From a virus, in the IMG/VR virus record IMGVR_UViG_3300042907_000631, positions 1 to 24,151 of that record: a stretch of DNA of 24,151 nucleotides; one strand, 5' to 3'. The notes under the pieces were generated by a model. The model ran no database searches. It saw nothing but the letters and a program-made list of their open reading frames with translations, and was not told the DNA's origin. Positions within the stretch are counted from its first letter, which is position 1; each line of letters opens with the position of its first letter. Shown one piece after another: positions 2,958-24,141 of this stretch. Both the position numbers and the translations under genes were made by a program.

Positions 2958-2968
2958 GAAAGTAATCA

Positions 2969-5071: not shown

Positions 5072-5076
5072 TTAAT

Positions 5077-5454: not shown

Positions 5455-5472
5455 TTAAATACGTACTTTTTC

Positions 5473-5480
5473 CTTAAATA
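5473..5480 (+). promoter_or_regulatory. Candidate late promoter (CTTAAATA) before gp6
   Basis: The 50-base gap between gp25 and gp6 is the largest in the window. It contains CTTAAATA, a 6 of 8 match to the T4 late octamer TATAAATA, 24 bases before ATG 5505. The same octamer at nearly the same distance precedes the giant gene, which supports a shared function. Initiation would fall near 5486, leaving a leader of about 20 bases that contains the gp6 Shine-Dalgarno (AGGGA, 5494-5498). The octamer also occurs inside the giant gene (12121-12128), so sequence alone is not decisive. Confidence 0.45.
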
Positions 5481-5504
5481 AATACATTATAACAGGGAAT
5501 TAGT

Positions 5505-8500: not shown

Positions 8501-8897
8501 CTATAATCCTGCTAAGTTTAAACCAATATTTGGATCAAAAGCACCAGTATCATTGCAAGCAACATTTAAGGTTGTAAAAAATTCAGCTGTTATTGTTAGT
8601 GATAATGATATTAAGACTAGTGTAATTACTGCTATTAATAATTACTTTGATGTTACGAACTGGGACTTTGGTGAAACGTTTTACTTTAGTGAATTAAGTG
8701 CATATTTACATAGTGTACTTGCTCCAAATATTGCAAGTATAACTATTGTGCCGTCAGACGAAACAAGCCCGTTTGGTAGTTTGTTACAAATCAATGCAGA
8801 ATACAATGAAATCATTACAAGTGCAGCAACAGTAGATAATATACAGGTAATTAGTGCAATTACTGCGGCACAAATCAACCAAACTGTTCTGGCTTAA
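5505..8897 (+). CDS. gp6: gp6-like baseplate wedge protein (Baseplate J family), enlarged
   Basis: The 1130-residue product matches the gp6/Baseplate J type. Gp6 dimers with gp7 and gp25 form the wedge core and the ring that closes the inner baseplate. The N-terminal region is characteristic: DWTKIYQTFRNADFQSYDYE, then YYPEDFNDFTESSEF, DLIAFMGQSLAFRTDLNAREN and RRDSVFKLARLISYVPKRN within the first 125 residues. The Baseplate J signature APQQYYTRDRMVTGEDYN lies near residues 419-436. The C-terminus carries NWDFGETFYFSELSAYLHSV (from about residue 1052), ending in a beta domain. T4 gp6 has 660 residues; the extra length here lies mostly between about 440 and 1000, in beta-rich segments including a Ca-loop-like DSNNDGIPDNPE near 825. 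ATG 5505 has AGGGA at 5494-5498 with 6-base spacing. The reading frame is intact. The main assignment is firm; the role of the central extension is unknown. Confidence 0.93.
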   Translation: MAITTRQTSLLVAEDWTKIYQTFRNADFQSYDYETLRKSMIDYLRLYYPEDFNDFTESSEFIALIDLIAFMGQSLAFRTDLNARENFIDTAQRRDSVFKLARLISYVPKRNIASSGYLKIDGISTTESVYDSNGLNLAGLVISWADSGNDNWLEQFTTILNASLTSSQVVGKPGNSQLINGITTSEYQINLVSNIIATYRYRAAIEGAQTTFEVVSPTSSGQTYIYEASPRPSQAFNILYRNDNLGNASANTGFFLYFKQGELQSIDFNFAESIPNRVHSINTNNINNTDVWLYSLDTNGQPSVAWAPVPAVGVSNVIYNKQANKNIYQVNTRAGDQIDLIFGDGSFANIPQGNYRLYYRTSNGANYKITPDEMQHIVIPVNYTSRSGRIETINITASLQYTVANASPRETIEEIRQKAPQQYYTRDRMVTGEDYNILPYTLFSNVLKVKAVNRTSSGVSRYLDVIDTTGKYSSTNIFASDGYLYRDETQNTFSFEFVTRNDIYRTIYNNITPLVTSQEMLQYFYAFYFKSPLLLPDVRWVHATTAANSSTGYFVDSLGKILQVGDTVSNNNSYIKPGAIIKFSAGSGQYFDARNIIQVGTPIKSGDKLYLYVAVDTVLADGTNAGQGKLANGTGPITVGGNVPTDAIADSVYATFNNKFSTTLVESIVAYTQAYEDFGIRYDIDLNVWVLIEPQNLNIGEFDLQYAGNTSGTQLDSSWMIYFKTVGQTYTVTYRGLNYIFESVNETNFYFDNTVKIYDPKTGITLHDQIKVLKINSNPNDSYPQALDYTWYIHKNIVDVDGYSNPNRISITFPDSNNDGIPDNPELFDLIVSPYTYPESKYVYFKATDGYDNFTNQIPVSSELIISTYATKLLIEEDKTLYQADQLFYVPLTNQYFQLAISSANVYTLNEVTGYTSKIGRQDLYFQYRHNSPNYRRIDPSPNNIIDLYMLTKQYAADYMSWIRDSSGATIEPTRPTSAVLGADFASLEKYKSVSDTIIYNPAKFKPIFGSKAPVSLQATFKVVKNSAVIVSDNDIKTSVITAINNYFDVTNWDFGETFYFSELSAYLHSVLAPNIASITIVPSDETSPFGSLLQINAEYNEIITSAATVDNIQVISAITAAQINQTVLA

Positions 8898-8900
8898 ATA
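8893..8900 (+). promoter_or_regulatory. Candidate late promoter (CTTAAATA) before the giant gene
   Basis: This octamer is identical to the one before gp6 and overlaps the gp6 stop codon (TAA 8895-8897). It ends 23 bases before ATG 8924, against 24 bases for gp6. The shared sequence and spacing suggest a T4-type late element recognised by a sigma-55-like factor. The factor is not encoded in the window. Overlap with the stop codon limits the weight of the match. Confidence 0.45.
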
Positions 8901-8912
8901 CTATATAACACT

Positions 8913-8917
8913 GAGAA
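8913..8917 (+). promoter_or_regulatory. Weak Shine-Dalgarno deciding the giant-gene start
   Basis: GAGAA at 8913-8917 touches the upstream ATG (8918), which is too close for efficient use. GAG lies 8 bases before the in-frame ATG at 8924, a normal spacing. The start at 8924, giving a protein beginning MASRKTLKFLP, is therefore preferred. The difference is only two residues. Confidence 0.55.
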
Positions 8918-8923
8918 ATGACA

Positions 8924-11900
8924 ATGGCATCTAGAAAAACCCTTAAATTTTTACCAACAATATTCCAAACAGATACGAATAGTAAATTCTTGTCGGCGAC
9001 ATTAGATCAATTAATTGCCGAACCCGAATTAAAAACTATACATGGATATATAGGTAGAAAATTTGCGCCAACATATAAAAATAAAGATAGTTACTTAGTT
9101 GAAAGTTTAACTGAACGCCAAAATTATCAACTTGAACCAAGTATAGTTGCTCGTGATGACCAACAAAATATTACATTCTTTGCTAGTTATATTGACTTAT
9201 TAAATAAAATAGATTACTATGGTGGCATAACAACTGATCACAGTCGATTATTTGCTTCGGAATATTACTCATTTAATCCGCAAATTTCGTACGATAAGTT
9301 TATTAACTTTACACAATATTTCTGGTTACCAAACGGTCCTGATTCAGTTGATGTATATACCGGTAGTGTACCACTAACTGATACTATCACAGTACACAGA
9401 GATAGTACTACAAATAAATATCGATTTGAGTCCACAGGGCGCAATAACGGTACCTTAATATTAGCCCGCGGCGGAGTGTATACCTTTGAAGTTAATCAAC
9501 CCGGGCATCCATTTTGGATTCAGACTGAATTAGGAATCGACGGCCTTGTAAATTCAACACCCGGAATTAGTTCACGTGAAGTATTAGGGGTAACCAATAA
9601 CGGAGCCGATGTTGGTACGATTACGTTCTTAGTGCCACAATCGACTGCACAAGATAATTTTAATTCGATGAATTTAATCTACAATGTAGATTATGCTATA
9701 CCGTTGGCATATTCAAAAATTCAACATCAATTATTATCTAATTTTATACAAGCATTTCCACAATATGCTCCTATTGCAGCAAATATTGATGGTAAAACTT
9801 TAATCTTTATTGATCAAGATCAATTAACTAATTATGGCGAAAACGCTTGGATCACACCCGGCTTATTTGACAACCATGGTATAGAAGTAGACGAGTTTGA
9901 TGCAGGATATGTAGTAACTAACAATCAACGTTACGGTGTATGGAAAATAATGTTGATTGAAAATGGCGGTGACACAATTATTAGATTAGTGCCAGTGATA
10001 GATGTACCGCTGAATAATAAGGTATATATTCAATCTGGGATTACTAATGTTAACCGAGAATACTTTAAGGATTATGATGAATTTTTCCATCAAGTCCCTG
10101 TAATTTCAAGTGTACAAAATACAATATATTATCAAGATGGGTCATCATCTGACCTATACGGCCAATTCTCTTTAATTAATCCTGCAAGTTGGATCATTGA
10201 TGTAGATCAAGAAATTATTGGAAAGTCTGAATACATTAGTCCTAACGGAATTGAATTCACAACAGGATTAAAAATTAAATTCGGCACAGATGTCTACCCA
10301 GCAACATATCAAAACAATAGTTATTATGTAGAGGGAGTAGGTGATGCAATTCGACTAGTTGACATTACTGCATTGATTACTCCGGAACCATTCAATGATG
10401 AATTAGCAATAAATTATCCTGGGCAAGTATTTCCTGACTATATTACGATTAATCGTGCTAGCAAAGATTTAAATGCATGGTCACGTAGTAATAGATGGTT
10501 CCATAGAGATGTAATTGAAAAGACTGCAGAATATAATTCAACAACACCAGCGTATGATCAATTGCAACGTGCGCAACGTCCTATTGTACAATTTAACGCC
10601 GATTATCAATTATTTAATAACGGACGTATTGGTAAAAAAGCAATTGATATATTGGATACATTAACCACAGATGCATTTAGTGATGTTGAAGGAACCTATC
10701 AAACTATATTTCGTGGCGCAACTATTATAAATGGAACTCGTGTTATATTTGCTAACGACAATGATCCGTTAGTCCGTAATAACATTTATGAAATTAATTT
10801 AGTATATATAACGGTAGATGAATTTCAACGACCAGTAGGCGATCCACAAATTACATTGACTCTAGCCGCAGATGGTATAGCAGAACAATATGATTCGACT
10901 GTAATCACAACAGGGCAGTATAAAGGAACATCTTGGTGGTTTAACGGCATTAACTGGGTTGAAAGCCAAACAAAAACAAGCAATCAGCAAGACCCATTGT
11001 TTGATATATTTGATTCGGCTGATACTAGTTTATCAGAATATCCAGCAAGTACCTTTGCTGGTACTAAGCTATTTGGCTATAAACGAAATTCAACAGGGCG
11101 CACTGACCCAGTATTGCAATTTCCACTTAGTTATAGAAACTTCGGAACACAAGGCGATATCGAATTTTCTAATTACTATAATATAGATACGTTTAGTTAT
11201 ACAGCAAACCCAATTACTCAAATTTCTATCGGGTCATTGCATAAAATTGCAGACCGTTATAATTCTGTATCGTCTACTATTTGGTCAACAGTTATTGAAG
11301 AAAGTAAACAATACCAATTAATATCATATATCTATTTGGGCTCGACCACAATATTTGCAATTGATGTTACACCTGCGGTTGAATCTACTATTCCGTATCT
11401 GCGTGTATTTCAAAATAATGTATTGTTAACCCCTACTCAATGGGTATTTAATTCTGTAACAAAAACTATTAGTTTAGTGGCTACCCCTGCAATCGACGAT
11501 AAAATCGATATCTTAGTATACAGTAAAGAAGTAAGTAAACTTGGGCACTATCAGATTCCGTTAAATTTAGATTTAAATGCACAAAATATTGATTTAGAAT
11601 CATTGACCTTAGGCCAGATACGTAATCATGTGGTTGCGTTAAGTCACAATAGCAAAGAATTAGTTGGTAATATTCTTGGCCCTAATAATTTACGAGATAT
11701 TGAGCTTGCAACGCAAGGCGGCAACATCTTGCAACATAGCGCACCTGTTCCACATGCTGCATTATTTTTATTAAACGAAGATACTAATTTTGTTAACGCA
11801 GTTCGTTATGCACAACAAGAATATGCTAGATTTAAAAATAAATTTCTTGAATATAGCACAACATTAAATGGCATTCAACCAACTGATCCGTCTGCTAGTG

Positions 11901-14900
11901 TTGATTTAATTTTAACAACCATTAACGCAATTAAAAGTCAGTTATTTCCATGGTATTATAGTGATATGGTACCGTATGGTACTTTAAAAAATATTTTAAA
12001 TGATGTAGGATATACAGTATTTGATCCATTGGTTAGAACTTATGAAATTACATCGGTATTCAATAGTGCTATATTAAGTAACCAAGCGATATTAGTATAT
12101 CTAAATGGCGAACAATTAATCTTAAATAGAGATTATTCTTTTAATACAGAACGTCCGGCAGTAACTTTTGCAGATACTCTATTATTAAATGTAGATGATT
12201 TAATTACTATTGTAGAATATCAAAACACTGATGGATGTTACATCCCTGAAACTCCTACTAAGTTAGGATTATATCCTAAATTTATTCCTGAGATCTTTTT
12301 AGATGATACATACCGTACGCCTATTAATGTTATTAGAGGACACGACGGTAGCTTAACACCGGCATTTAATGACTACCGTGATGACTTCCTACTAGAATTA
12401 GAAAAACGTATCTATAATAATATTAAGGTGCCCGACACAGGCCGCAATCAAGATATCCACGAAATAGTTACAGGTAAATTTAGAAACAGCGACTTTGTAT
12501 TAGCTGAAGCCACTCAATTATTGTCGGGTAGTTTTCTTAACTGGGTCGGGAATAACAAATTAGATTATAGCACAAATGATACGTTTAATTCAAATGATCC
12601 GTTTACATGGAACTACAGTAGATTCATTGATAGAATTAACGGTGAAGCATTGCCGGGCAGTTGGAAAGCATGCTTCCAATATTTTTATGATACAATTCGA
12701 CCACACCAAACACCATGGGAAATGTTGGGCTTTACATCAATTCCTGATTGGTGGGAAGACGAATATGGAACAGCACCCTATACCGGCGGTAATACATTAC
12801 TATGGAGCGATTTAGAAGCAGGCTTAATTAAGGGCGGCCCAACTGCTGGAGTAGATTCTAACTATATTCGTCCTGGACTTTCAAAAATCATTCCAGTAGA
12901 CGAAAATGGTATATTAAAAAGCCCGGCGGCAATATTAACTGCCGAGTTTGATTCAAAATATGCCGCTACAAGTTGGGCGGCAGGTAGTCAAGGCCCGGTA
13001 GAAGCCGCATGGAGAACTAGTAGCGAGTTTCCGTTTGCTGCACAGGTAGCATTGGCATTAGCAAAACCAGGCAAATATTTTGGAGTCTTTTTAGATGTTA
13101 ACAGCTATCAATATAATTACAATATAGGTCAGTATCTAACAACAGCTAACAATCACTTAACACAAACATCAACATCATTTAACGGTGATACTACATCTGG
13201 CACAGTATTCAGAGGCGCCGGATATTTAAACTGGGTTGCGGATTATTTAATTAATCTTGGTATTAATCCGGCTACTAAAATTACTCTATTGATGAAAAAT
13301 TACAAAGTTAATCTTGCATATAAAATGGCTGGGTTTAGTGATCAAAAATATTTACAAGTATTAGCAGAGCAAAGCTCACCGACTAGTACAAATGATAGTA
13401 TTATTATTCCGGATGAAAATTACGAAGTATATTTGTATAAATCAACTCCGGTTGATAAACTTACATATAGTGCAGTTATCATTGAAAAAACAAGTAATGG
13501 GTTCAGTGTACGTGGGTATGATTTAAGTAACCCGTATTTCACTATCATTCCTAGCATAGTTAATTCTAATGCATCTAAGATTACTGTAGTAGCACAATCG
13601 GCTGCAGTGTTTAATGATTATCAACCAGTTAAATTAACAGTTCCATACGGTTATGATTTTAGTAGCATGCAACAAGTAGTTGATTTCTTAATAAGTTACG
13701 AACGCTATTTGCAAGCACAAGGGTTTACATTCAATGACAACGACGGGCAGTTAAATGAAGTACGTAATTGGAAACTTTCGTCTAAAGAATTCCTATTCTG
13801 GGCACAACAAGGTTGGCCAAATGGAAGTATTTTAGTCTTATCACCGGTGTCAAATTTAATAACTTCGTTAAGTTCAGGCGCAATCACCGACGGAATCTCT
13901 GATAGTCAGTACGGAACAAAAATATTAGATCAAAATTTTAAATTAATTAAAAATAATAATTATAATGTTTTACGTACACCAACAAGTTTAAAAGTAGAAT
14001 TAACTAACGGCCAAGTAATAGGACTTATGACGTTAGATTTAGTACAATACGAACATGTATTAGTTTTTGATAATACAACAGTGTTCAATGATATTATCTA
14101 TAAACCCGAGCTTGGTAACAGACAATTTAGATTAAAATTAATCGGACAAAAAACAGATAACTGGGACGGAAGTTTAACCTCCCCAGGATTTGTATATAAT
14201 TCTAATACTGTACAATCTTGGATACAAGGAAAAGATTATCTTAAAGGTGTATTAGTTCAATATAAAAATCAATATTATGTTGCACTTCAAAATATTATTG
14301 CATCCGAATTATTTGATTTCTCTGCATGGAAAAGTGTTGACGCTGACCAAATTAAAACAGGATTATTACCTAACTTTGCGAGCAATGCAGTTAAAGCACA
14401 ATCATATTATGATGCATACGGATATTTTAATGATTCTAACAATGTTAAATATAGCCACGGATTAATTGGATTTAAACCACGCCAATTTTTAGATGACATG
14501 GGCTTAAACGAAACAACCCAAGTTGAATTCTATAAAGGTTACATTACACAAAAAGGTACGGCAAATGCAATTGATGCATTAACTAATGCACAATTTAATA
14601 ATTTAAATAGTGCAATTGATTACTACGAAGAATGGGCAGTGCGAGTTGGCGAATATGGCGCAATTGATACTAATCCATACGTAGAAATTGCATTAGATGA
14701 AAAGGCATTCAGTGTTAATCCTGCACTTGCAGAATTTGTGCCAACAACAGACGAAGCACGAGCTAATGGAGTTACTGTATTTGCAAACGGCGATCTTTAC
14801 AAATCAACTAATCAATTTGATGGTACAATAGCCTCTATTAGAAATGATCAAAGTGATTATGATAATGATATTCCGACTGCGGGTTACGTAAACATTGATG

Positions 14901-17900
14901 ATATTGATGCTACTATATTTGACCTTGCTAACTATGCAGATTTAAATAGTCTAACATATACTATGGGTAGTGGTTATACTATATGGACCGCAAAAGATTT
15001 TAAATCAGATTGGAATGTTTTTAGAATATCAGAAACAGATACTACTATTGTAGAAGTAGAAAATGCATTAGATGGCTATATAACATTTAGAACAGATGTT
15101 TATCATGGATTAGCAGCTGATAATGTAGTAATGATTCGTAATTTTGATGCAGCATTTGATGGCTTCTATGAAGTATATAGAATTGTAGATTTAAGTAGCT
15201 TTATGGTTCGTTACACAGGCGATACAACAACATTAACTAACTTTACTGGCTCTGGTATTTTGTTTACCTTAGATAGTTTACGCTTTAATTACATGGAAAC
15301 TGCTCGTGAATACTTCCCACCACATGGCTGGAAAGTTGGCGAGAAGATTTGGATTGATACTGATGCAGCAACTACAACAGGACAAGGTCAACCGTACAAT
15401 ACTGGCGACAACTTATGGAAAGTATACGAGAAGACACGCCCATGGGAAATGGGCCAACGCCTAGTAAAAAATATCGGTGAATATTCTGCAGATATAGGAT
15501 ATGGCCAAGCATTAAAAATGATTGATAATGCCGCGCAAACTATTTTTGTTGGTACTACTTTATATGCAACTACTGGTGCAGTAAATGTATTTGATAAAAA
15601 TACATCAAATGTATATGTTGAAACAACTACTATAGTACCAGATGGTGCAAATACATTTACATTCGGTTCGCACATTGATACAGCAGTTGATACTACAGTA
15701 TTTGATGGTATCGATTCGAGAGAAACATTAGCAGTTGCGGCACCAACAAGTTCTGGATTAGCAGGAGCAGCAAATGTTGGACTATTATACATCTATAAAG
15801 AAACTGCTGGCACTGAAAATTGGGTAAGAGGACAAGTCATCGCAGGCAATGTTAGTGCCGTTGGTGGGAAATTTGGTACAGGCTTTGCGTTTGATGAATT
15901 AGGCCACTGGCTATATGTTGGTGCACCATACGAATCGACTCCTAAAGTTTATGTTTACGGTTTACAACGCTTTGTGACTGTGGCTACCGGAAATGTTACT
16001 ACATCTGGTTCTGTGTCAACGGTAACAGTACCGTTTACACGTGATGCAACAGTTGGGTCAACTGATGCTAATTCATTATTAGTTACAAGTGCAACACGTA
16101 CATATATTCCACGAATTGACTATACAGTAAGTGGGCAAACAATAACATTTATATCCGGTAACGTAAATGCTACATTAACAATTTCACAAGGACCATACTA
16201 CACTTTAATTGAAACTATTACTCCACCGCCCGGCACAGGTGATAACAGTGAATTTGGCTATTGTATTGATGCTAGCTTAAATGGTGCACAACTTGGAGTT
16301 GGATGCCCGGGTGATACAGTTAACGTAGCAGTATTCAGCGATGGTATAACAACCGTTGAACGTTCAATTCCTGTAGGAACTAATACTGCATCAATTACGT
16401 TAGATGGAAATGTATTACCACGTACATCATACGTTGAGAATGTTGGTGCTGGATCGGTATTTGTGTACGATCGTGTTATTGAATCATTTAATAGTACTAA
16501 CGATACAATATATACTACAGAAGAAACTATCGCTCCGGTATATAAAGTAACAGTTGATGGCATTGAAATATTTGATTATACAAAAACAGCCGCAAAAGAA
16601 ATAACATTATATGTTCCAGTAGGCATTGGTAAAGTTATTAACATCGAAACTAATAAATTTACTCTATTAGAAAAACTAATTGGAATTGATTCGCTTGATG
16701 GTACGCTAGGTGCAATTCAATCAGGCGCACGTTTTGGTTCGGCATTAACAATTTGTTCAAACAATTGCGCATTCTATATTGGCGCTCCGTATTACGACAG
16801 TGGTACAATTTATAACACTGGTGCTGTATGGAAATTCCATAATAGAGGAACACTATACGGTACTAACACAGGTTATACACATAACCCAACGTTCACACCG
16901 GGTGATACAATTCGATTAGACAACTTCCAAATTACTGTAACTGGTACTAGCTTAGATAGTTTGGTTGAAGATATTAACAATGCTAATCTATTAGGTATTA
17001 CCGCAGTTAATGAAAATGGATATTTAAGATTAAACAGTGATAAAACTGTAGCTAAAAATCGTTTACGTATCTTATCAGCAAGTGGCACCGTGTATGAAGA
17101 TGCAGGCATGGCTATATTTGCATTCATGCAGATTATTGTTAACCCTTATAAAAATGCCAATGAATATTTTGGTACTAAAGTTATATTGGCTCGCAATGCA
17201 TATATGCTAGTGATCAGTAGCGATCGCGGTACAACAAGAAAATATACTACATTTGATAACGATACTACTATACTCGATGGTGAAACTACTGGCATATATG
17301 ATAGTATAAAAGCTAGTGGAAGTGTATACACATATGAACTATACGATGACCCACGCAATGCAGTAGAGAATCCAGGACGCTACGCATTCTGTCAACAAAT
17401 TGATCCAACAGATTTAAATCCAGGTGACGGATTTGGTGCTGCGATTGATGTTATTGGCGGACATATCGTAGTAAGTGCACCAAATGATGATGCAACAATA
17501 ACCAATGGTGGTAGCATTTATCTGTTTAGTAATCCAACTGGGCAACGTGGGTGGAATTTATTACGTTACGAACAGCCAACAGTTGATATTGATTCTGTTA
17601 ACAGACTTTATGTGTATAACAAACGAACTAATACTATTTTAGCTAATTTAGAATTCATTGATCCAGCTGCTGGTAAGATTTTAGGGCTAGCAGAACAAGA
17701 ACTTTCATATAAAACATCATATGATCCTGCAATTTATAATAAAGGCACAAGTAGCGAAAGCAGTTCAAATACATATTGGGAAGCTACACAAGTCGGTAGA
17801 GTATGGTGGAATTTAGACCAAGTACGTTACATAGATTACGAGCAAGGATCACTAGCATATCGCAGTATTAACTGGGGTAGATTATTTCCAGGATCAATTG

Positions 17901-20900
17901 TTGAAGTATTAGAGTGGGTAGAATCGGACGTATTACCGAGCAAATATGTTTCTGCAGGTAATAATGGTACACCAAAACATGCTGACGATAGTGCGTATGT
18001 GGAAACTATATTTGTTGATCCACTTACTAATATAATTAGTACAAAATATTATTATTGGGTTAAAGATAAAACATCACTTGATGTTATTAATTCTTCAAGA
18101 TCATTGCCGATTAAAGTTATTCGAGACTTAATAGAAAATCCAAAAAATAACGGAACAGCATATACAGCTATCATTTCACCTTCTGCGGTGATACTATATA
18201 ATATTGCCGAGTATCTATCCGATGTAGATACAATATTGCATTTAGATTATGAATTAATACGAAATTCAAGCATAGTACATAGTGAATATGAATTAATACA
18301 AAAAGGTAATAATGTAGGTATAATTCCTGTTCGAATTATAGATAAATTAATAGATAGTTTAGTAGGATATGATATAGCTAATGCGCAAGTTCCGGATATG
18401 GGATTAAGCATTGCTGACCGATATGGTATTTCTATTAGACCTCGACAATCGATGTTTGTTGATAGACTTACTGCGGTTACTGTACTAATTGATTATGTTA
18501 ATAATGTATTTACAACTGCCCAATATACTACATATAATGTGGAACATCTTCTATTAGAAGAATCGCAACCAAGCAAAAAGTTAAATGAATACGATATATT
18601 AGTTACAACAGAAGAAGAATTACTATATGTTGATACAACCGAATTATCATCGGGTTACTTAGTATTAGTTGCGACTAATACAATGTACGAAGGTAGATGG
18701 ACACTGCATCAATTAACTAGTACTAATACATGGGAAATAATTCGAAGCCAATCATACAAAACTAGTTTGTATTGGGATTACGCAGATTGGTATGCCACTG
18801 GTTACACTTCTGCTATTAAACCAGCTTATTCAGTTGCAACATTGCTTGATGCATTAAAACTGCCGTATACAGCTAATGATATTATTAAAATAACCAATAC
18901 CGGAGCAGGACAATGGGAATTAATACTTGTCAATGACGCACTTGAATTTGTTACAATTGGTAAACAACACGGAACCATACAACTTAATAAATCTAAATTA
19001 ATTGATGTAACATTAGATCAACACGTTGAACTTCGAAATATTATTGTTGGATTGCAAGATGATATATTTGTTGGTACGCTTGCTGGAGAGTTTAATAAAT
19101 TATTCTTTCAATTGATAAATTATTTATTTACTGAACAAACTTATGTTGATTGGATATTTAAAACTAGTTTTATTAGCATTGTTCACAAATTACGTGGGTT
19201 AACTCAACCATCTAATTATATCAAGGACAATCAAACTTATTACCAGGATTATATAAACGAAGTTAAACCGTATTCAACTAAGATACGAGAATATTTACTT
19301 AATTACAATAGTGTTGATGAGTTTCCGGGTAGCGTGTCTGACTTTGATCTACCTGCATATTATGATCATACGCTGAAGGTATTCCGTAGTCCAAGTGGCG
19401 AGCAACTTGCTACAGATTCGTCGATGTGGCAAACAGCACCATATAATCAATGGTATGCTAATAGAACCTATGAAATCGAATCAATAGAAATTGGAAATAA
19501 AGGAGTCGGTTATGTAACTGCGCCTGTAGTTGAGATATACGGAAATGGCACCGGTGCAACTGCACACTCATTGATTAATTTTGATACAGGTGAAGTTACT
19601 GCCGTGATAGTTGATAACCCGGGAACAGGATATAGCCAACAAGTTGTTATTCGACTAAATGGCAATGGATCAGGGGCAACGGCATACGCAAGATTACACA
19701 ATAATCAAGTGCGTAGTATTAATACTACTATGAAATTTGATAGAATTAGTTATTCTAGTGTAGTTAAAGAATGGACACCTAATACAGTATTTTTAGCGGG
19801 CGACATTGTTAGCTATAATGCAGTTGGTTACATTGTAAATGCAAACATGACTACCCCGGCTAAATTTATTGCCTCTGATTATACTGTTCATCCATCTGCA
19901 AGTTTTACTAATGCAAATGATAGAATAATGGCAAACTATGCTCCGGGTAATGACCTTCCACTGAAAAATTTATCACAGTTAATTTATGGCATCGATTATC
20001 CAGGCGTACAAGTAACTGGACTGCCGTTTGATCAGGCTCCTGGCTTAGATTTAGGACCGTTTGATATCAACCTATTTGATCAGGTGCAATATGATATTGA
20101 TGGTCTACCAATGACAAGTGACACAGCAGTTGATTCGCTGATTCAGAGTAACTACACTGATTTAGCTCTTGGTACACGCCCAGAAGATATTAATGTTATT
20201 GGTGGTGCGTATGTTGATACATATTCGAGTCATGCTCCAGAAGAAATGGTTCCGGGTATTGTATTTGATACATTAAATCTACAAGTATATACTAAGATTC
20301 TTGGTAATACTGTGGTACTTGGATATCGCATATTACACGATATGCTACACAATTCGACATATCTACGAATTGCAGAACATTATTCAACGGTGTTAACTGC
20401 CCCTTTAAATATTAGTGATAGTTTAATTTATGTCGAAGATGCAAGCACCTTACCTATACCGGACCCAGATGCTGGTATCCCTGGGGTAATATTTATTCAG
20501 ACAGAACGAATTACGTATTATACAATTGATTTAATTAATCATACATTAGGACAATTACGTAGAGGAACAGCAGGAACCGCACCAAGATTAACTTATCAAT
20601 CTGGGGTTGCAGTAGTTGATGCAAGTAATAGACAATTAATGCCAAATATTGGTTCTAGTAATGTAACTCATGCAGTAGATCATGCATACACTATTACATC
20701 AACTCCGCCATATGAGTTAACATTTACTGATGCAATTATACCAACGTTTGGTGATTATATTACACAAGCAAGCACTGGTGCTAATGTTACGGTAACTGCA
20801 ATATCAACCTTAACTGCCGAAACCATACAAGTAAGTGCTATTTTACCAGTTTTACAAGTTGGTGACATTGTAACTCAAAGTTTGTCAGGAACAATTGCTC

Positions 20901-21685
20901 GAGTAACAAAAACAGATACGACTAGTAACTACATAACATTAGTATATACTGCCGGTCAATTTACTGTAGGATCAGGTAATATTAGTTTGAATGGAATAGA
21001 TGCCAATGCATATCCTACATCTGCAAGTATTAGGGCTGTGCCTCGTGCTACTGTTATTAAAAATAACAATATACCGTTTAGTTATGCATCTGCAAATGTT
21101 GGATTGAATAGTAATATCACAGTATCAAGTGGTAGTTACATAACTCAAAGCTCAACTGGTGCAAATGCAATAGTTCAACAATCAGTTACTGACAGTAAGT
21201 ATGTTAACTTAGTATATGTAGATACAACAATATTTGAATTAGGCGCTGGCAATATTGCAATTAATGGCGGTACTGTTACAAGTATACATCCTACTACATC
21301 GGTATATATTGCGAATATAAGTAATCAAATAAGTATCAATGGCACAATTAGTTCTGACATTGCTCCGCTTGCTATGAATTTATTAGCTGCAAGTGATTCG
21401 ACTAACGAATATGTTACTGGATCAGTTGATGCCAATGGAAATATTACAGTTAAAGCAAATGTAACTTTAAAAACAGATAATGCATGGTATACACCTATAC
21501 CTGGAGTTGCACCATCAGATGGGCTGGGCTTCCAGTTTACTGATACTGCTCAGGTATTATTCTTAAAATTATGGCCAAGTGGCTATCCAGCGAGTTTTGC
21601 AATAGGTGATGAGGCGTTGGTAAATATAGTAACAGAATCGGGTATAGAAATATACGGCGAGTTTGGTGATATTGATGGAAATTAA
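8924..21685 (+). CDS. Giant mosaic baseplate/adsorption structural protein (about 4,250 aa)
   Basis: One uninterrupted frame of 12.8 kb; residue numbers here count from ATG 8918. Residues 1-145 form a conserved-looking anchor (LKFLPTIFQTDTNSKFLSATL, HGYIGRKFAPTYKN, FTQYFWLPNGPDSVDVY). A cupredoxin-like beta domain follows (about 150-260), then a long region with signatures I associate with marine T4-like giant structural proteins (NAWSRSNRWFHRDV; RPHQTPWEMLGFTSIPDWW). Short beta modules occur near 831-872 and 1061-1105. A carbohydrate-binding-like motif starts at Trp1768. Seven FG-GAP-like repeats span about 2195-2895. A further conserved block (VDWIFKTSFISIVHKLRG, YINEVKPYSTKIREYL) lies near 3411-3480. 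The C-terminus has Gly-rich repeats (3522-3594), a second Trp module (3619), an RGTAGT-type domain (3831-3908) and TQSSTGA-type duplications (3943-4135). It follows gp6, where T4 has gp7, so I infer a peripheral wedge or receptor-contact role. No signal peptide, membrane segment or enzyme active site is evident. Confidence 0.82.
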   Translation: MASRKTLKFLPTIFQTDTNSKFLSATLDQLIAEPELKTIHGYIGRKFAPTYKNKDSYLVESLTERQNYQLEPSIVARDDQQNITFFASYIDLLNKIDYYGGITTDHSRLFASEYYSFNPQISYDKFINFTQYFWLPNGPDSVDVYTGSVPLTDTITVHRDSTTNKYRFESTGRNNGTLILARGGVYTFEVNQPGHPFWIQTELGIDGLVNSTPGISSREVLGVTNNGADVGTITFLVPQSTAQDNFNSMNLIYNVDYAIPLAYSKIQHQLLSNFIQAFPQYAPIAANIDGKTLIFIDQDQLTNYGENAWITPGLFDNHGIEVDEFDAGYVVTNNQRYGVWKIMLIENGGDTIIRLVPVIDVPLNNKVYIQSGITNVNREYFKDYDEFFHQVPVISSVQNTIYYQDGSSSDLYGQFSLINPASWIIDVDQEIIGKSEYISPNGIEFTTGLKIKFGTDVYPATYQNNSYYVEGVGDAIRLVDITALITPEPFNDELAINYPGQVFPDYITINRASKDLNAWSRSNRWFHRDVIEKTAEYNSTTPAYDQLQRAQRPIVQFNADYQLFNNGRIGKKAIDILDTLTTDAFSDVEGTYQTIFRGATIINGTRVIFANDNDPLVRNNIYEINLVYITVDEFQRPVGDPQITLTLAADGIAEQYDSTVITTGQYKGTSWWFNGINWVESQTKTSNQQDPLFDIFDSADTSLSEYPASTFAGTKLFGYKRNSTGRTDPVLQFPLSYRNFGTQGDIEFSNYYNIDTFSYTANPITQISIGSLHKIADRYNSVSSTIWSTVIEESKQYQLISYIYLGSTTIFAIDVTPAVESTIPYLRVFQNNVLLTPTQWVFNSVTKTISLVATPAIDDKIDILVYSKEVSKLGHYQIPLNLDLNAQNIDLESLTLGQIRNHVVALSHNSKELVGNILGPNNLRDIELATQGGNILQHSAPVPHAALFLLNEDTNFVNAVRYAQQEYARFKNKFLEYSTTLNGIQPTDPSASVDLILTTINAIKSQLFPWYYSDMVPYGTLKNILNDVGYTVFDPLVRTYEITSVFNSAILSNQAILVYLNGEQLILNRDYSFNTERPAVTFADTLLLNVDDLITIVEYQNTDGCYIPETPTKLGLYPKFIPEIFLDDTYRTPINVIRGHDGSLTPAFNDYRDDFLLELEKRIYNNIKVPDTGRNQDIHEIVTGKFRNSDFVLAEATQLLSGSFLNWVGNNKLDYSTNDTFNSNDPFTWNYSRFIDRINGEALPGSWKACFQYFYDTIRPHQTPWEMLGFTSIPDWWEDEYGTAPYTGGNTLLWSDLEAGLIKGGPTAGVDSNYIRPGLSKIIPVDENGILKSPAAILTAEFDSKYAATSWAAGSQGPVEAAWRTSSEFPFAAQVALALAKPGKYFGVFLDVNSYQYNYNIGQYLTTANNHLTQTSTSFNGDTTSGTVFRGAGYLNWVADYLINLGINPATKITLLMKNYKVNLAYKMAGFSDQKYLQVLAEQSSPTSTNDSIIIPDENYEVYLYKSTPVDKLTYSAVIIEKTSNGFSVRGYDLSNPYFTIIPSIVNSNASKITVVAQSAAVFNDYQPVKLTVPYGYDFSSMQQVVDFLISYERYLQAQGFTFNDNDGQLNEVRNWKLSSKEFLFWAQQGWPNGSILVLSPVSNLITSLSSGAITDGISDSQYGTKILDQNFKLIKNNNYNVLRTPTSLKVELTNGQVIGLMTLDLVQYEHVLVFDNTTVFNDIIYKPELGNRQFRLKLIGQKTDNWDGSLTSPGFVYNSNTVQSWIQGKDYLKGVLVQYKNQYYVALQNIIASELFDFSAWKSVDADQIKTGLLPNFASNAVKAQSYYDAYGYFNDSNNVKYSHGLIGFKPRQFLDDMGLNETTQVEFYKGYITQKGTANAIDALTNAQFNNLNSAIDYYEEWAVRVGEYGAIDTNPYVEIALDEKAFSVNPALAEFVPTTDEARANGVTVFANGDLYKSTNQFDGTIASIRNDQSDYDNDIPTAGYVNIDDIDATIFDLANYADLNSLTYTMGSGYTIWTAKDFKSDWNVFRISETDTTIVEVENALDGYITFRTDVYHGLAADNVVMIRNFDAAFDGFYEVYRIVDLSSFMVRYTGDTTTLTNFTGSGILFTLDSLRFNYMETAREYFPPHGWKVGEKIWIDTDAATTTGQGQPYNTGDNLWKVYEKTRPWEMGQRLVKNIGEYSADIGYGQALKMIDNAAQTIFVGTTLYATTGAVNVFDKNTSNVYVETTTIVPDGANTFTFGSHIDTAVDTTVFDGIDSRETLAVAAPTSSGLAGAANVGLLYIYKETAGTENWVRGQVIAGNVSAVGGKFGTGFAFDELGHWLYVGAPYESTPKVYVYGLQRFVTVATGNVTTSGSVSTVTVPFTRDATVGSTDANSLLVTSATRTYIPRIDYTVSGQTITFISGNVNATLTISQGPYYTLIETITPPPGTGDNSEFGYCIDASLNGAQLGVGCPGDTVNVAVFSDGITTVERSIPVGTNTASITLDGNVLPRTSYVENVGAGSVFVYDRVIESFNSTNDTIYTTEETIAPVYKVTVDGIEIFDYTKTAAKEITLYVPVGIGKVINIETNKFTLLEKLIGIDSLDGTLGAIQSGARFGSALTICSNNCAFYIGAPYYDSGTIYNTGAVWKFHNRGTLYGTNTGYTHNPTFTPGDTIRLDNFQITVTGTSLDSLVEDINNANLLGITAVNENGYLRLNSDKTVAKNRLRILSASGTVYEDAGMAIFAFMQIIVNPYKNANEYFGTKVILARNAYMLVISSDRGTTRKYTTFDNDTTILDGETTGIYDSIKASGSVYTYELYDDPRNAVENPGRYAFCQQIDPTDLNPGDGFGAAIDVIGGHIVVSAPNDDATITNGGSIYLFSNPTGQRGWNLLRYEQPTVDIDSVNRLYVYNKRTNTILANLEFIDPAAGKILGLAEQELSYKTSYDPAIYNKGTSSESSSNTYWEATQVGRVWWNLDQVRYIDYEQGSLAYRSINWGRLFPGSIVEVLEWVESDVLPSKYVSAGNNGTPKHADDSAYVETIFVDPLTNIISTKYYYWVKDKTSLDVINSSRSLPIKVIRDLIENPKNNGTAYTAIISPSAVILYNIAEYLSDVDTILHLDYELIRNSSIVHSEYELIQKGNNVGIIPVRIIDKLIDSLVGYDIANAQVPDMGLSIADRYGISIRPRQSMFVDRLTAVTVLIDYVNNVFTTAQYTTYNVEHLLLEESQPSKKLNEYDILVTTEEELLYVDTTELSSGYLVLVATNTMYEGRWTLHQLTSTNTWEIIRSQSYKTSLYWDYADWYATGYTSAIKPAYSVATLLDALKLPYTANDIIKITNTGAGQWELILVNDALEFVTIGKQHGTIQLNKSKLIDVTLDQHVELRNIIVGLQDDIFVGTLAGEFNKLFFQLINYLFTEQTYVDWIFKTSFISIVHKLRGLTQPSNYIKDNQTYYQDYINEVKPYSTKIREYLLNYNSVDEFPGSVSDFDLPAYYDHTLKVFRSPSGEQLATDSSMWQTAPYNQWYANRTYEIESIEIGNKGVGYVTAPVVEIYGNGTGATAHSLINFDTGEVTAVIVDNPGTGYSQQVVIRLNGNGSGATAYARLHNNQVRSINTTMKFDRISYSSVVKEWTPNTVFLAGDIVSYNAVGYIVNANMTTPAKFIASDYTVHPSASFTNANDRIMANYAPGNDLPLKNLSQLIYGIDYPGVQVTGLPFDQAPGLDLGPFDINLFDQVQYDIDGLPMTSDTAVDSLIQSNYTDLALGTRPEDINVIGGAYVDTYSSHAPEEMVPGIVFDTLNLQVYTKILGNTVVLGYRILHDMLHNSTYLRIAEHYSTVLTAPLNISDSLIYVEDASTLPIPDPDAGIPGVIFIQTERITYYTIDLINHTLGQLRRGTAGTAPRLTYQSGVAVVDASNRQLMPNIGSSNVTHAVDHAYTITSTPPYELTFTDAIIPTFGDYITQASTGANVTVTAISTLTAETIQVSAILPVLQVGDIVTQSLSGTIARVTKTDTTSNYITLVYTAGQFTVGSGNISLNGIDANAYPTSASIRAVPRATVIKNNNIPFSYASANVGLNSNITVSSGSYITQSSTGANAIVQQSVTDSKYVNLVYVDTTIFELGAGNIAINGGTVTSIHPTTSVYIANISNQISINGTISSDIAPLAMNLLAASDSTNEYVTGSVDANGNITVKANVTLKTDNAWYTPIPGVAPSDGLGFQFTDTAQVLFLKLWPSGYPASFAIGDEALVNIVTESGIEIYGEFGDIDGN
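9349..9700 (+). other. Cupredoxin-like beta domain within the giant protein
   Basis: The segment GGVYTFEVNQPGHPFWIQT, then GVTNNGADVGTITFLVPQ (roughly residues 150-260 of the giant protein), follows the marine virion pattern Y-x-F-x-x-x...GHPF...GV-x-x-NG...G-x-(I/L)-x-F-x-VP. I associate this pattern with a plastocyanin/cupredoxin fold. The usual C-terminal copper-ligand stretch (YYCxxHxxM type) is absent: the sequence runs DNFNSMNLIYNVDYAI instead. A structural, non-copper role is therefore likely. The family assignment is by motif only. Confidence 0.5.
14210..14340 (+). other. Carbohydrate-binding-like Trp module in the giant protein
   Basis: Starting at Trp1768, the sequence WIQGKDYLKGVLVQYKNQYY followed by FDFSAWKS fits the short pattern W-x(4-6)-Y-x-x-G-x-x-V-x-Y-x-x-x-x-Y...F...W seen in CBM5/12-like modules and many phage fibre proteins. 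A second copy begins at Trp3619 (nt 19772): WTPNTVFLAGDIVSYNAVGY. Such modules may bind cell-surface polysaccharide. Binding is inferred from the motif alone. Confidence 0.4.
15480..17610 (+). repeat. Seven FG-GAP-like repeats (putative beta-propeller) in the giant protein
   Basis: Seven (F/Y)G cores occur at residues 2195 (GYGQALKMID), 2249 (FTFGSHIDTA), 2319 (KFGTGFAFDE), 2446 (EFGYCIDASL), 2606 (RFGSALTICS), 2751 (YFGTKVILAR) and 2839 (GFGAAIDVIG). Most are followed about 10-20 residues later by a GAP-like element (YVGAPYES, YIGAPYYD, VVSAPNDD, AVAAPTSS, VGCPGD) and then a strand such as GAVWKF, GSVFVY or GSIYLF. This is the integrin-alpha/FG-GAP blade pattern, and seven is the usual blade number. 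Long insertions separate blades 3 to 6. Canonical DxDxDG calcium loops are not evident, so calcium binding is doubtful. Confidence 0.68.
16891..17095 (+). other. Flagellin-IN-like segment inserted between propeller blades 5 and 6
   Basis: The stretch from FTPGDTIRLDNFQITVTGTS through LDSLVEDINNANLLGITAV to NGYLRLNSDKTV resembles the flagellin/hook-associated IN repeat. Shared elements are a small beta hairpin, then a helix ending in a (D/A)IN-x-A core, then G-(I/V)-TA and NG-x-L-x-L. The same design is found in FliD and flagellins, and sporadically in phage fibres. It sits between the FG cores at residues 2606 and 2751 and explains part of that wide spacing. Confidence 0.45.
19480..19700 (+). 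repeat. Tandem GxGYxxxPxVxIxGxGxGATA repeat in the giant protein
   Basis: Two copies follow each other. Copy 1 reads GNKGVGYVTAPVVEIYGNGT and then GATAHS. Copy 2 reads DNPGTGYSQQVVIRLNGNGS and then GATAYA. They are joined by a GEVTAVIV strand. This Gly-rich beta repeat is common in virion proteins of marine phages and probably forms a small beta-prism or solenoid spacer. No catalytic residues are visible. Confidence 0.65.
20740..21315 (+). repeat. Degenerate duplicated beta module at the giant protein's C-terminus
   Basis: A full unit at 20863-21047 (GDIVTQSLSGTIARV, ITLVYTAGQF, VGSGNISLNG, YPTSASI) recurs at 21127-21312 (GSYITQSSTGANAIV, VNLVYVDTTIF, LGAGNIAING, HPTTSVYI). A half copy (GDYITQASTGANVTV) lies just upstream, near 20752. 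The order of elements is the same in each unit, which indicates internal duplication. At protein level the match is clear; at DNA level it is diverged. Confidence 0.7.
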
Positions 21686-21719
21686 TACCACCACGAAACA
21701 AAAAATGATTAACGTGTCC

Positions 21720-21723
21720 GGAG
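21720..21723 (+). promoter_or_regulatory. Shine-Dalgarno for the fibre-like gene
   Basis: GGAG lies 6 bases before ATG 21730 in the 44-base gap after the giant gene. This is one of the best ribosome binding sites in the window and fixes the start. Unlike the gaps before gp25, gp6 and the giant gene, this gap has no TAAATA-type octamer and no evident hairpin. The gene is probably read through from upstream. Confidence 0.75.
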
Positions 21724-21729
21724 ACATAA

Positions 21730-24141
21730 ATGACAATTAAAATAAGCCAGTTAACGGCGCTGACTAGCATGACAAATACTACGCTAATGGCAGTGGTAGA
21801 TACTGATGGACCGTATATTACTAAAAGAATAGATGGATCGGTATTACGAGATTTTTTTGCTAATGTAGCAACTACAGGAAACACTGCACAATTAACAGTT
21901 AATTCAAGTTTAGTTCCGATTACTGATTCAATGTATAATTTAGGAGCTGCTGGATCGGCATTTGGTGAGTTGTATACAAGTGGCACGTTTTATACAGATG
22001 GTGCAATTAGAAATAATGCCGGAATTGTGTCAGTATCAACATCAACTGGTGCGCTTACTGTAGTTGGTGGGGTTGGTGTAACTGGCAATATTAATGCAGG
22101 TAATGTTACTGCTACTAATTTAACTGGACATATTGCAACTCCGGTCCAAGATCAAATTACATCACTTGGCACACTAACTGGATTAACATCTAGTGGTGCC
22201 GTATCTATTACAGCAACAACTGGTTCAGATTCATCAACAACTGGCGCTTTAATAGTAGCAGGCGGACTCGGCGTTAGCGGTAACGTACACATACCGAGCA
22301 CATATCAACTACACGTTGGATCAGATGTAGTTGCAGCATCATTTCCGCAATCAGTAGCACAGTTCAATAGTAGCGTTAATAACTATCAACAAGTTGTGAT
22401 GCAAAATATAAGCAGTGGCGCGACTGCTTCGTCAGATTATATTGCAGTAGCCGACACAGGCGATGATGCTAGCAAATACATCGATATGGGTATTAACTCA
22501 AGTGGGTATTCTAATCTAGATTACAGTATCGCTGGCGCACTTGATGGATATATGTATGTTAACGGTGGCAATTTAGCAATAGGTACACAAACTGTAGGAA
22601 AAAGTATTGTATTCCACACAGGTGGCACACAATTATCTAATCTTCGAGCTCGATTATCGTCAACTGGATTAACAGTTAATGCAACAACAGCAACAAGCTC
22701 AATAACAACTGGCGCACTAGTAGTAAACGGTGGAATTGGAGTTGCAGGCGATATGCGAGTAGGTGGAAACATTTATGCTGCTAACTTAATTACTACTAGT
22801 ACTTCGACGTTATCTGTATCGGCTCCATTGGTATATATGGAAGCATCTACACCATACCCATATTCATATGATATAGGTATCTTTAGTGCATTCACTGGTG
22901 GCCCAGCCAACGTATATGCACATACCGGATTTGTACGTAACGACACCGACGGTGTATGGAATTTGTTTAGTAATGTTGCTGAACCAGCAGGCGGTCAAGT
23001 AAGTTTAACTAATGCAATTTATGATCCAATTAAGACTGGTGCTCACACAATCAATAGCGATGCAGTCACTAAACTAGTCAATGGCGGCACCAGTGGGGTT
23101 GGCAATATTGGATCGAGCAGCGGTATTTTTAATACAGTATTTGCTACTAAATTACAAGGTACATTAACTACTCCAGCACAAACAGCAATCACATCAGTTG
23201 GCACATTAGTAGGTGGAACATGGAATGCCGCTACTATTAGTGTAGCATACGGTGGAACAGGTACAACAACTAACACAGGGACAGGTTCAGTAGTATTAAG
23301 TAATTCGCCTACATTAGTGACACCAGCATTGGGTACACCAACAAGTGGTAATTTATCTAATTGTACGTTCCCAACATTAAATCAAAACACCAGCGGAACA
23401 GCTGCAGGATTGTCTGCTACATTGGCAGTTGCATCTGGCGGCACAGGTACAACAACAAGCACCGGTACTGGTTCAGTAGTACTAAGTACCGGCCCAACTA
23501 TAGCTACTCCTACATTTACTGCACCGGCATTAGGAACTCCAACATCGGGTAACTTTGGGTCTGGTACATTTGTTTGGCCAACATTTAATCAAAGTACAAG
23601 TGGTAGTGCCGCGAGTTTATCGGGTGTTCCGTCGCTTACGCTAGCATCTGTGACTACACCAAGTATTACCCATTCGGGCGGAAATGGCGTGGGAGATATT
23701 GGTGCTGCAGGTTCTACATTTGCTACAGTTTACGCAACAACATTCAGTGGTGTTTCAACTACTGCAAAATATGCCGATATAGCAGAAAATTATCAAGCAG
23801 ATGCGGAATACGCACCGGGCACTGTTTTAGCATTTGGCGGACTGTTTGAAGTTACGCTAGCCACCGATAATACAGCTCGAGTCGCCGGTATAGTATCTAC
23901 TAACCCAGCACATTTGATGAATACAAATTTAATAGGGCACAATGTTGTTGCCCTTGCATTGACTGGTCGTGTACCGTGTCGAGTTACTGGTAGTATTAAG
24001 AAAGGCGACTTAATGGTTGCAGCGTCTGATGGATTTGCTAGAGCAACAACATCTCCGCAGTTCGGCGCAGTAATAGGCAAAGCGTTAGAAGACTTTGAAG
24101 GTACAGACGGAATAATTGAAGTTGTTGTTGGAAGGCTATAA
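21730..24141 (+). CDS. Repeat-rich tail fibre-like protein with C-terminal Peptidase_G2-like chaperone domain
   Basis: The product has 803 residues rich in Thr, Ser, Gly and Ala, with almost no charged stretches, as expected for a trimeric beta-structured fibre. The N-terminus (MTIKISQLTALTSMTNTTLM, then VVDTDG) is of the type that starts many marine phage virion proteins. The shaft holds three TGALxVxGGxGVxGx repeats (from residues 106, 171 and 327), two TPxQxxITSxGTL repeats, three G-x-x-GSxFxxVYAT-like repeats, and two GGTGTTT cassettes (about 508-631). The last 128 residues (YADIAENYQADAEYAPGTVL, then AGIVSTNPAHLMN, LTGRVPCRVTGSIKKGDLMV, FGAVIGKALED) resemble the Peptidase_G2 intramolecular-chaperone domain of fibre/appendage proteins. 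That family trimerises the shaft and may be cut off by autoproteolysis. No S74-type SDxRxK motif is present. I infer a fibre or receptor-contact role near the baseplate; the scissile site cannot be identified by eye. Confidence 0.84.
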   Translation: MTIKISQLTALTSMTNTTLMAVVDTDGPYITKRIDGSVLRDFFANVATTGNTAQLTVNSSLVPITDSMYNLGAAGSAFGELYTSGTFYTDGAIRNNAGIVSVSTSTGALTVVGGVGVTGNINAGNVTATNLTGHIATPVQDQITSLGTLTGLTSSGAVSITATTGSDSSTTGALIVAGGLGVSGNVHIPSTYQLHVGSDVVAASFPQSVAQFNSSVNNYQQVVMQNISSGATASSDYIAVADTGDDASKYIDMGINSSGYSNLDYSIAGALDGYMYVNGGNLAIGTQTVGKSIVFHTGGTQLSNLRARLSSTGLTVNATTATSSITTGALVVNGGIGVAGDMRVGGNIYAANLITTSTSTLSVSAPLVYMEASTPYPYSYDIGIFSAFTGGPANVYAHTGFVRNDTDGVWNLFSNVAEPAGGQVSLTNAIYDPIKTGAHTINSDAVTKLVNGGTSGVGNIGSSSGIFNTVFATKLQGTLTTPAQTAITSVGTLVGGTWNAATISVAYGGTGTTTNTGTGSVVLSNSPTLVTPALGTPTSGNLSNCTFPTLNQNTSGTAAGLSATLAVASGGTGTTTSTGTGSVVLSTGPTIATPTFTAPALGTPTSGNFGSGTFVWPTFNQSTSGSAASLSGVPSLTLASVTTPSITHSGGNGVGDIGAAGSTFATVYATTFSGVSTTAKYADIAENYQADAEYAPGTVLAFGGLFEVTLATDNTARVAGIVSTNPAHLMNTNLIGHNVVALALTGRVPCRVTGSIKKGDLMVAASDGFARATTSPQFGAVIGKALEDFEGTDGIIEVVVGRL
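22045..22755 (+). repeat. Three dispersed TGALxVxGGxGVxG repeats in the fibre shaft
   Basis: Copies begin at 22045 (TGALTVVGGVGVTGNI), 22240 (TGALIVAGGLGVSGNV) and 22708 (TGALVVNGGIGVAGDM). Each is preceded by a Ser/Thr-rich run. The unit is a common beta-shaft building block in phage fibres. Confidence 0.75.
23251..23622 (+). repeat. Duplicated GGTGTTT cassette in the fibre gene
   Basis: Unit A (23251-23415) and unit B (23437-23622) encode the same series: GGTGTTT(N/S)TGTGSVVLS, a P-T element, TPALGTPTSGN or APALGTPTSGN, (F)PTxNQxTSG, and a GTAAGLS or GSAASLS end. Unit B carries a few extra residues near 23510. Similarity is visible in DNA as well as protein, suggesting fairly recent duplication or selection for the repeat. 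It resembles widespread phage-fibre repeats, which are frequent recombination points. Confidence 0.78.
24130..24135 (+). promoter_or_regulatory. Shine-Dalgarno for the next gene, inside the fibre gene's end
   Basis: GGAAGG codes for the penultimate residues of the fibre protein and lies 7 bases before ATG 24143, which begins one base after the fibre stop codon. This placement suggests translational coupling to the next gene. Confidence 0.55.

Follow-up and report, generated by a model that had tools for sequence, protein, structure and literature searches.

Integrin alpha chains carry a head made of seven FG-GAP blades arranged as a beta-propeller, with a Ca2+-binding DxDxDG motif in the 1-2 loops of the later blades and, in some integrins, an I domain between blades 2 and 3. 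Propellers have also been described on phage baseplates. According to one report (PMC4901313), PhiKZ gp131 has a C-terminal seven-bladed propeller (PDB 4GBF) at the baseplate periphery, with an unproven role in receptor binding or as an enzyme, and phi11 Gp45 is a separate, trimeric receptor-binding protein in which a five-bladed propeller platform has a cavity that could hold N-acetylglucosamine, glutamine cyclotransferase being its best DALI match. Here, we analyze a 24,151-base virus record (IMG/VR IMGVR_UViG_3300042907_000631; hereafter, the window), which comes from an environmental, probably jumbo, phage. Its giant open reading frame (ORF) of 4255 amino acids (8918..21685; this and all other window features are on the + strand) is predicted to contain, at residues about 2173-2878 (15434..17551), a complete seven-bladed FG-GAP_2-type beta-propeller that resembles the integrin alpha head. 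Neither the fold nor the repeat family of the ring is new, but its setting in a giant baseplate protein is: there, it occupies a natural insertion site in a hairpin that also exists in empty and alternative versions. Among the open-licence PMC papers listed by our searches, judged by title and the start of the abstract, none deals with a baseplate protein of a phage that carries an FG-GAP propeller.

The original prediction, which was made from the letters of the sequence, placed seven FG-type cores at residues 2195, 2249, 2319, 2446, 2606, 2751, and 2839. These positions are exact, and six of the cores do read FG, but the first is YG. In a family alignment of 43 rows (the window and 42 relatives), the core glycine is invariant at all seven cores, and it is preceded by F or Y in every row at six of them and in 42 of 43 rows at the seventh, where the lone exception is L. 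A loose FG...GAP pattern matches six times within residues 2150-2900 and nowhere else in the giant ORF, and when that region was shuffled 5000 times, the pattern matched 0.12 times on average and never more than 3 times. The enrichment of FG alone is only mild there (6 of 12, binomial p 0.011), and thus the weight of this evidence rests on the FG...GAP pattern and the family conservation. With the whole giant ORF as the query, Pfam FG-GAP_2 (PF14312) found a single repeat above the cut-off, at residues 2826-2870 (24.5 bits versus a cut-off of 23, E 3e-5); it scored 26.8 bits on residues 2040-2990 and matched all 43 aligned rows (E <= 0.01). For Pfam FG-GAP (PF01839), nothing was found in the window, and 2 of the 43 rows matched. 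When PDB sequences were searched with a profile made from the 43 rows, integrin alpha-4 (E 7e-7), alpha-6, and alpha-M were matched, with E values from 7e-7 to 2e-3. The ring shares its family with the FG-GAP_2 propellers of bacteria and viruses; what sets it apart from them is that it is part of a conserved baseplate scaffold, of which versions with a plain hairpin also exist.

The AlphaFold2 model of residues 2040-2990 has a mean predicted local distance difference test score (pLDDT) of 77.6 and a predicted template modeling score (pTM) of 0.75, with pLDDT under 50 at 2149-2164, 2781-2789, and 2811-2818 and from 2885 onward, and it presents in order the strands for seven blades and a closing strand. 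Its best Foldseek match was an integrin alpha-5 entry (E 1e-7). In VIA-align, the best 50 rows were all integrin entries (Z 36.5-39.9, 357-382 residues, 2.5-2.8 Å, 15-18% identity), with Z reaching 39.9 over 364 residues at 2.5 Å, and the integrin alignments span model residues 135-843, that is, residues 2174-2882 of the giant ORF. Isolated heads such as 1tye_A (452 amino acids) align over 375 residues, in that case at 2.7 Å, which means that the match extends over the entire head and is not limited to a few blades. Given the FG-GAP_2 match, the profile match to integrin alpha-4, and a model that follows integrin alpha heads along their length, the seven-bladed integrin-like propeller of the original prediction appears to be correct. 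PhiKZ gp131 (4GBF) was not among the best 50 VIA-align rows, and we liken it to the window propeller by description only, as its propeller is C-terminal and the one in the window is an internal insertion. Similarly, phi11 Gp45 and the window protein both place a propeller on a baseplate, but Gp45 is a five-bladed separate receptor-binding protein, whereas the ring in the window is a seven-bladed insertion. Similar predicted viral structures found for the model include a cyanophage S-TIM5 virion protein, an uncultured Caudovirales FG-GAP protein, and proteins from giant viruses of eukaryotes.

Some findings weigh against reading the region as a complete integrin-like ring. The PDB profile matches are largely confined to the first blades (about positions 143-325 of the profile), and the 15 PDB sequences at E <= 1 include one non-integrin, PHIST, at E 0.008. 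Moreover, the Foldseek list also includes DDB1 and SF3B propeller entries, and 919 of the 970 chains aligned by VIA-align reach Z >= 8. One could also propose a chain of separate beta-sandwich domains in which the FG-GAP repeats arose by chance or convergence, which is the outcome that the original prediction had named as contradicting it. The window taken alone has one repeat that passes Pfam, and the core spacing is very uneven owing to insertions, as such a chain might show. Nevertheless, the family profile reaches integrin sequences, the glycines are invariant at all seven cores, and the predicted fold has a Z near 40 to integrin heads, and we therefore consider a chain of beta-sandwiches highly improbable.

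As for its limits, the ring had been placed at 15480-17610, and it is indeed there, but this start is too late: we assign the outer strand closing blade 7 to residues 2177-2182, which precede the first core. This putative velcro strand (EMGQRL, 15446..15463) is a strand in the model, and the integrin alignments start at 2174, mostly with chain residue 1. Blade 1 (15500..15634, residues 2195-2239) and blade 2 (15662..15844, residues 2249-2309) are followed by blade 3 (15872..16219, residues 2319-2434), which has an insertion of 76 amino acids in its 3-4 loop (15968..16195; 73-248 amino acids in the 43 rows). Blade 4 (16253..16678, residues 2446-2587) has one of 48 amino acids in its 2-3 loop (16307..16450; 11-66 in the 43 rows) and another of 60 in its 3-4 loop (16475..16654; 60-75), and blade 5 (16733..17140, residues 2606-2741) has one of 91 in its 3-4 loop (16844..17116; 91-351) that looks Flagellin_IN-like by eye. 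Pfam Flagellin_IN matches 2 of the 43 rows, somewhere in those members, as the scan does not give the position within them. Blade 6 (17168..17401, residues 2751-2828) has a 2-3 loop of 32 amino acids and contains the model's stretches of pLDDT under 50 at 2781-2789 and 2811-2818, and blade 7 (17432..17530, residues 2839-2871) would be completed by the velcro strand.

The propeller had been described as split by long insertions, and this holds for blades 3 to 5: their 3-4 loops have 76, 60, and 91 residues, so that the long insertions share the same loop in three neighboring blades. The 1-2 loops are short, with 0-9 residues, and hardly vary save in blade 2, and in some relatives there are long loops around blade 1 (up to 100 residues) and in blade 7 (up to 90). 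The strand identity to the window across relatives is 0.72-0.99 in blades 5 and 6 (0.77-0.99 in blade 5, which is among the most conserved) and 0.36-0.65 in blades 1 and 2, with blades 3, 4, and 7 lying between, at 0.27-0.91. In contrast to integrin alpha chains, no DxDxDG-type cation loop was found in any of the 43 rows (pattern D.[DN].[DN]G..[DE]), the long insertions lie in the 3-4 loops of blades 3 to 5 and not, like the I domain, between blades 2 and 3, and the propeller lies inside a phage protein, flanked by phage baseplate scaffold. The missing cation motif rules out membership in the integrins proper, and the ring is thus integrin-like in fold but not an integrin.

The place of the ring in the protein can be read from relatives that do not have one. 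On its left, the conserved scaffold (14864..15433, residues 1983-2172) ends in LWKVYEK, which is also the first strand of the receiving beta-hairpin (15413..15433, residues 2166-2172, from DSSP of the model); on its right, the second strand, WNLLRYEQP (17552..17578, residues 2879-2887, with pLDDT under 50 from 2885 on), leads into further conserved scaffold (17579..18367, residues 2888-3150) that is common to RaK2, PA5oct, Atu_ph07, SCTP-2, and others. Two metagenomic relatives, L144 and L347, read straight through this junction as ...GWAVYTYNG(A/S)TW(D/T)RTRQQ..., their sequences being ...GWAVYTYNGATWDRTRQQ... and ...GWAVYTYNGSTWTRTRQQ... The same junction is ...LWKVYEKTRPW (ring) GWNLLRYEQ... 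in the window and ...GWGVYTYNRPW (ring) TTWQLTRHAEPQ... in L145, another ring-bearing relative. In the model of L144, the empty-site scaffold (pLDDT 85.1) has strands at 254-258, homologous to the first strand in the window, and 263-268, with a four-residue turn between them. The identity between the window and L144 is 47.5% in the right flank and 29% in the left. Thus, where the conserved scaffold would otherwise have a beta-hairpin turn of four residues, the window has the propeller. The fold of this scaffold gave a best VIA Z of 6.8, over 76 residues (a UBA6 domain), and the phi92, EndoNF, and K1F endosialidases gave 5.3-6.5; all are under the tool's caution line of 8, and we therefore did not use them.

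Cultured phages give a similar picture. The giant proteins of RaK2 (ORF070), PBECO4, XaC1, and Vibrio phage 2.275.O, which belong to phrog_10938 and each follow a gp6-like or other long baseplate gene, have the same scaffold on both sides of the slot, but they have no propeller: between blastp anchors, they have 58-149 residues versus 784-848 in the window (for RaK2, 87 versus 823). Between the nearest anchors, there are 290 residues in PA5oct, 384 in SCTP-2, 1526 in Phosso, and 1532 in Atu_ph07, and in these four slots, neither the FG-GAP pattern nor a Pfam FG-GAP match was found. Altogether, none of the eight cultured homologues examined (of 62 records matched) has a propeller in this slot. 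A ring-less profile of the joined flanks matched all eight; its alignment crosses the joint from the left in Phosso, Atu_ph07, SCTP-2, and RaK2, starts at the joint in PA5oct, and covers the right flank only in the other three.

Loci for a wider survey were taken from IMG/VR with one scan using the propeller region and four using the upstream core, each of these four giving the best 80 of 574-579 relatives. Together with the eight cultured phages, these gave 308 ORFs having both flanks, 200 of them distinct, in a sample that leans toward the query sequences and is no census. Classified with home-made profiles, with slots under 330 residues counted as short or empty, the 200 distinct slots comprise 150 propellers, 26 short or empty slots, 9 GDSL hydrolases, 2 YHYH domains, and 13 others, and none scored as two classes. 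Five of the cultured phages are in the short or empty class (PA5oct with 322 residues) and three in the last. Of 52 propeller representatives scanned with Pfam, 48 were confirmed by FG-GAP_2. Among ten slots missed by the first propeller profile, Pfam found FG-GAP_2 in 3, Lipase_GDSL_2 in 4, YHYH in 2, and nothing in 1 (L144). In a jumbo-phage survey, YHYH is a predicted tail-associated metal-dependent hydrolase (PMC7824862). By eye, the GDSL domain lies upstream of a TAGYVN motif, apart from the hairpin, and YHYH lies at the hairpin. At the level of sequence, the presence and family of the propeller, the empty site, and the alternative occupants of the slot are established, and the fold of the propeller is predicted.

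Several details of the survey concern the remaining occupants. The GDSL/SGNH acylhydrolase slots are those of L140, L142, L149, L150, and L309-L313, of which the first four were checked with Pfam and the other five classed by the home-made profile alone. There was no Pfam match above the cut-off in the unclassified slots of L167, L169, L181, L183, L188, L190, L193, L194, L245, and L285 (376-910 amino acids), with sub-cut-off matches to CBM_X2 in L181 and Gp18_dom_I in L194, nor in four cultured slots scanned, with a sub-cut-off Gp18_dom_I match in Atu_ph07. CBM_5_12 matches 5 of the 52 slots scanned. Four loci (L118, L121, L124, and L129) have homologues of about 6100-6230 amino acids in one frame; their slots have 1462-1702 residues and are preceded by some 830-960 more residues than in the window. 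No Pfam match was found in the part of L118 before the slot.

A FastTree phylogeny of the upstream cores, made from 120 of the 200 and rooted at the midpoint only, requires three changes of the propeller label, each of them imposed by branches whose local support is 95% or more. One lies between two large groups, and two lie inside the propeller group, where L144 and L347 form a fully supported pair with an empty site and the nine GDSL rows form one group, the YHYH rows belonging to the same change. Two later losses of the ring are the simplest reading, and the midpoint root fits either a single gain or a single loss at the base. We tentatively propose, at somewhat short of even odds, that this is a modular display site, in which the propeller was gained or ancestral at the hairpin, diversified in many lineages, and was lost at least twice, once with GDSL nearby or YHYH in the hairpin.

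For the propeller itself, we favor, with a probability of roughly 0.5, a role as a platform that engages the host surface and is displayed from the baseplate wedge, for which we infer the docking side, the exposure, and the binding of a ligand. An integrin-alpha-like FG-GAP_2 propeller would have been inserted into the beta-hairpin turn of the giant wedge-position protein of large phages, and because the first and last strands of a propeller meet at the velcro closure, the ring could join or leave the hairpin without breaking the scaffold. The well-conserved blades 5 and 6 may dock on a conserved phage neighbor, and the variable blades 1 and 2 and the loop insertions may face outward, binding a glycan or a protein of the host surface. 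One lineage that is nested among the propeller carriers lacks the ring and instead has a GDSL acylhydrolase at a neighboring site or YHYH in the same hairpin. This host-facing reading is based on the accessory nature of the ring, on the variability of the blades and insertions, on the hydrolase-type domains of the nested lineage, and on the phage propellers described earlier. The absence of the ring from some relatives and the hydrolase-like domains found there or nearby in a few suggest that the slot holds a swappable part facing the host cell.

Several points speak against such a role. The ORF downstream of the giant one resembles a separate tail fiber (phrog_19602, E 2.8e-8) and is thus another candidate for host recognition. 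With 26 of the 200 slots short or empty, the baseplate works without the ring, and a dispensable ring fits an accessory part, for which receptor binding is only a candidate role. As GDSL lies at a neighboring site, GDSL and the propeller are alternatives within one slot and not exact swaps. The occupancy classes are home-made, with 12 of the 64 propeller representatives outside the Pfam scan and 4 of the 52 scanned failing it. Finally, a ring that is highly conserved in part would also suit a purely internal role. The propeller could be a structural spacer or docking hub that binds wedge, fiber, or whisker proteins and makes no contact with the host, as the strand identity of 0.72-0.99 in blades 5 and 6 and the insertions on blades 3 to 5, which could clasp partners, would allow. 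We regard this as a serious possibility but a doubtful one, given that blades 1 and 2 are far less conserved, that the ring is missing from well-supported lineages, and that one lineage has hydrolase-type domains at or near its place. Display to the host and a hub function could also both hold, for different sides of the ring.

Some propellers are enzymes, and the ring could likewise be one, such as a glycosidase or lyase acting to trim the surface of the host. A GDSL hydrolase and the predicted hydrolase YHYH are found next to or at its site in one lineage, and Lactonase, a seven-bladed propeller family, also matches 1 of the 52 wider propeller members. This is nevertheless unlikely, since the best 50 structural rows are all integrin entries, while lower rows may include enzymes. 

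If the modular display site proposed above is real, the means to recognize the host or process its surface would be part of the baseplate wedge itself, and not of the fibers alone. Host range in phages is usually attributed to tail fibers; here, a conserved wedge-position protein carries an adhesion-type or hydrolase-type module. The predicted integrin head fold is common within a single family of environmental phage proteins (150 of the 200 distinct slots in a query-biased sample), and a defined module site with natural empty versions makes the question testable by structure or deletion.

The identification of the giant ORF as a baseplate protein rests on the gene order, gp25-like, gp6-like, giant ORF, and on the record of its homologue PA5oct gp355. 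This record notes electrospray ionization tandem mass spectrometry (ESI-MS/MS), and thus at least one homologue of the giant ORF is present in the virion. The ORFs listed in the window are all on one strand: a left-edge ORF whose left end is open (3-2957), a hub/lysozyme-like ORF (2969-5068), the gp25-like ORF (5077-5454), the gp6-like ORF (5505-8897) directly upstream of the giant ORF, the giant ORF itself, and the fiber-like ORF (21730-24141). The giant ORF matches phrog_10938, annotated as a virion structural protein, and its eight cultured homologues have 3326-4555 amino acids. It has the position of T4 gp7, directly after gp6 (the T4 order being 6-7-8). In hhalign, two profiles of the giant-ORF family reached a best probability of 0.5% against a five-member gp7 profile and 1.1% against T4 gp7 alone, so that sequence homology to T4 gp7 was not detectable by this method and the gp7 label is by position only. 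As a control, T4 gp6 against the window gp6-like alignment, which is deeper than those of the gp7 test, gave P 1.4e-4 and a probability of 52.5%. There was no hhalign signal between the giant-ORF family and gp8, gp10, or gp53. Residues 730-758 of T4 gp7 (L359:7061-10156) show a weak match to phrog_2885, a family of baseplate wedge proteins whose profile has 4179 positions, and giant gp7-type proteins therefore exist elsewhere.

Other searches with the window were less informative. At the DNA level, it had no match among cultured phages, tblastn with the propeller region alone gave no match, and PDB sequence searches with the single full giant ORF or with upstream core A2 gave nothing at E <= 1. 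A search of genome contigs for hosts found 7 loci, all in metagenome-assembled genomes of mixed groups, and for this reason we claim no host.

Further along the giant ORF, residues 3618-3647 (19769-19858) form a CBM_5_12-like stretch that is just below the Pfam cut-off (24.6 versus 26.2 bits), and segments matching this area of the family profile (positions about 3600-3695) are also found in Phosso and Atu_ph07. Near the C-terminus, at residues about 3940-4160 (window about 20730-21400), a motif of the form YITQ.STGAN... is repeated, as judged by eye. FG-GAP_2 proteins also occur elsewhere in two of the cultured phages. Sinorhizobium phage Phosso (L085) has two neighboring giant genes on the minus strand (2339-11827 and 11901-22979; 3162 and 3692 amino acids), annotated as hypothetical, with many FG-GAP_2 repeats, and the larger of them (E 1.5e-172) has a terminal Laminin_G-type lectin domain. 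Finally, FG-GAP_2 proteins of about 400 amino acids lie beside MazG genes in Agrobacterium phage Atu_ph07 (L084, 5019-6200, minus strand) and Phosso (46125-48533, plus strand); the one in Atu_ph07, annotated as a hemagglutinin, also adjoins a tail-sheath gene, and it appears on the list of viral structures that match the propeller model.

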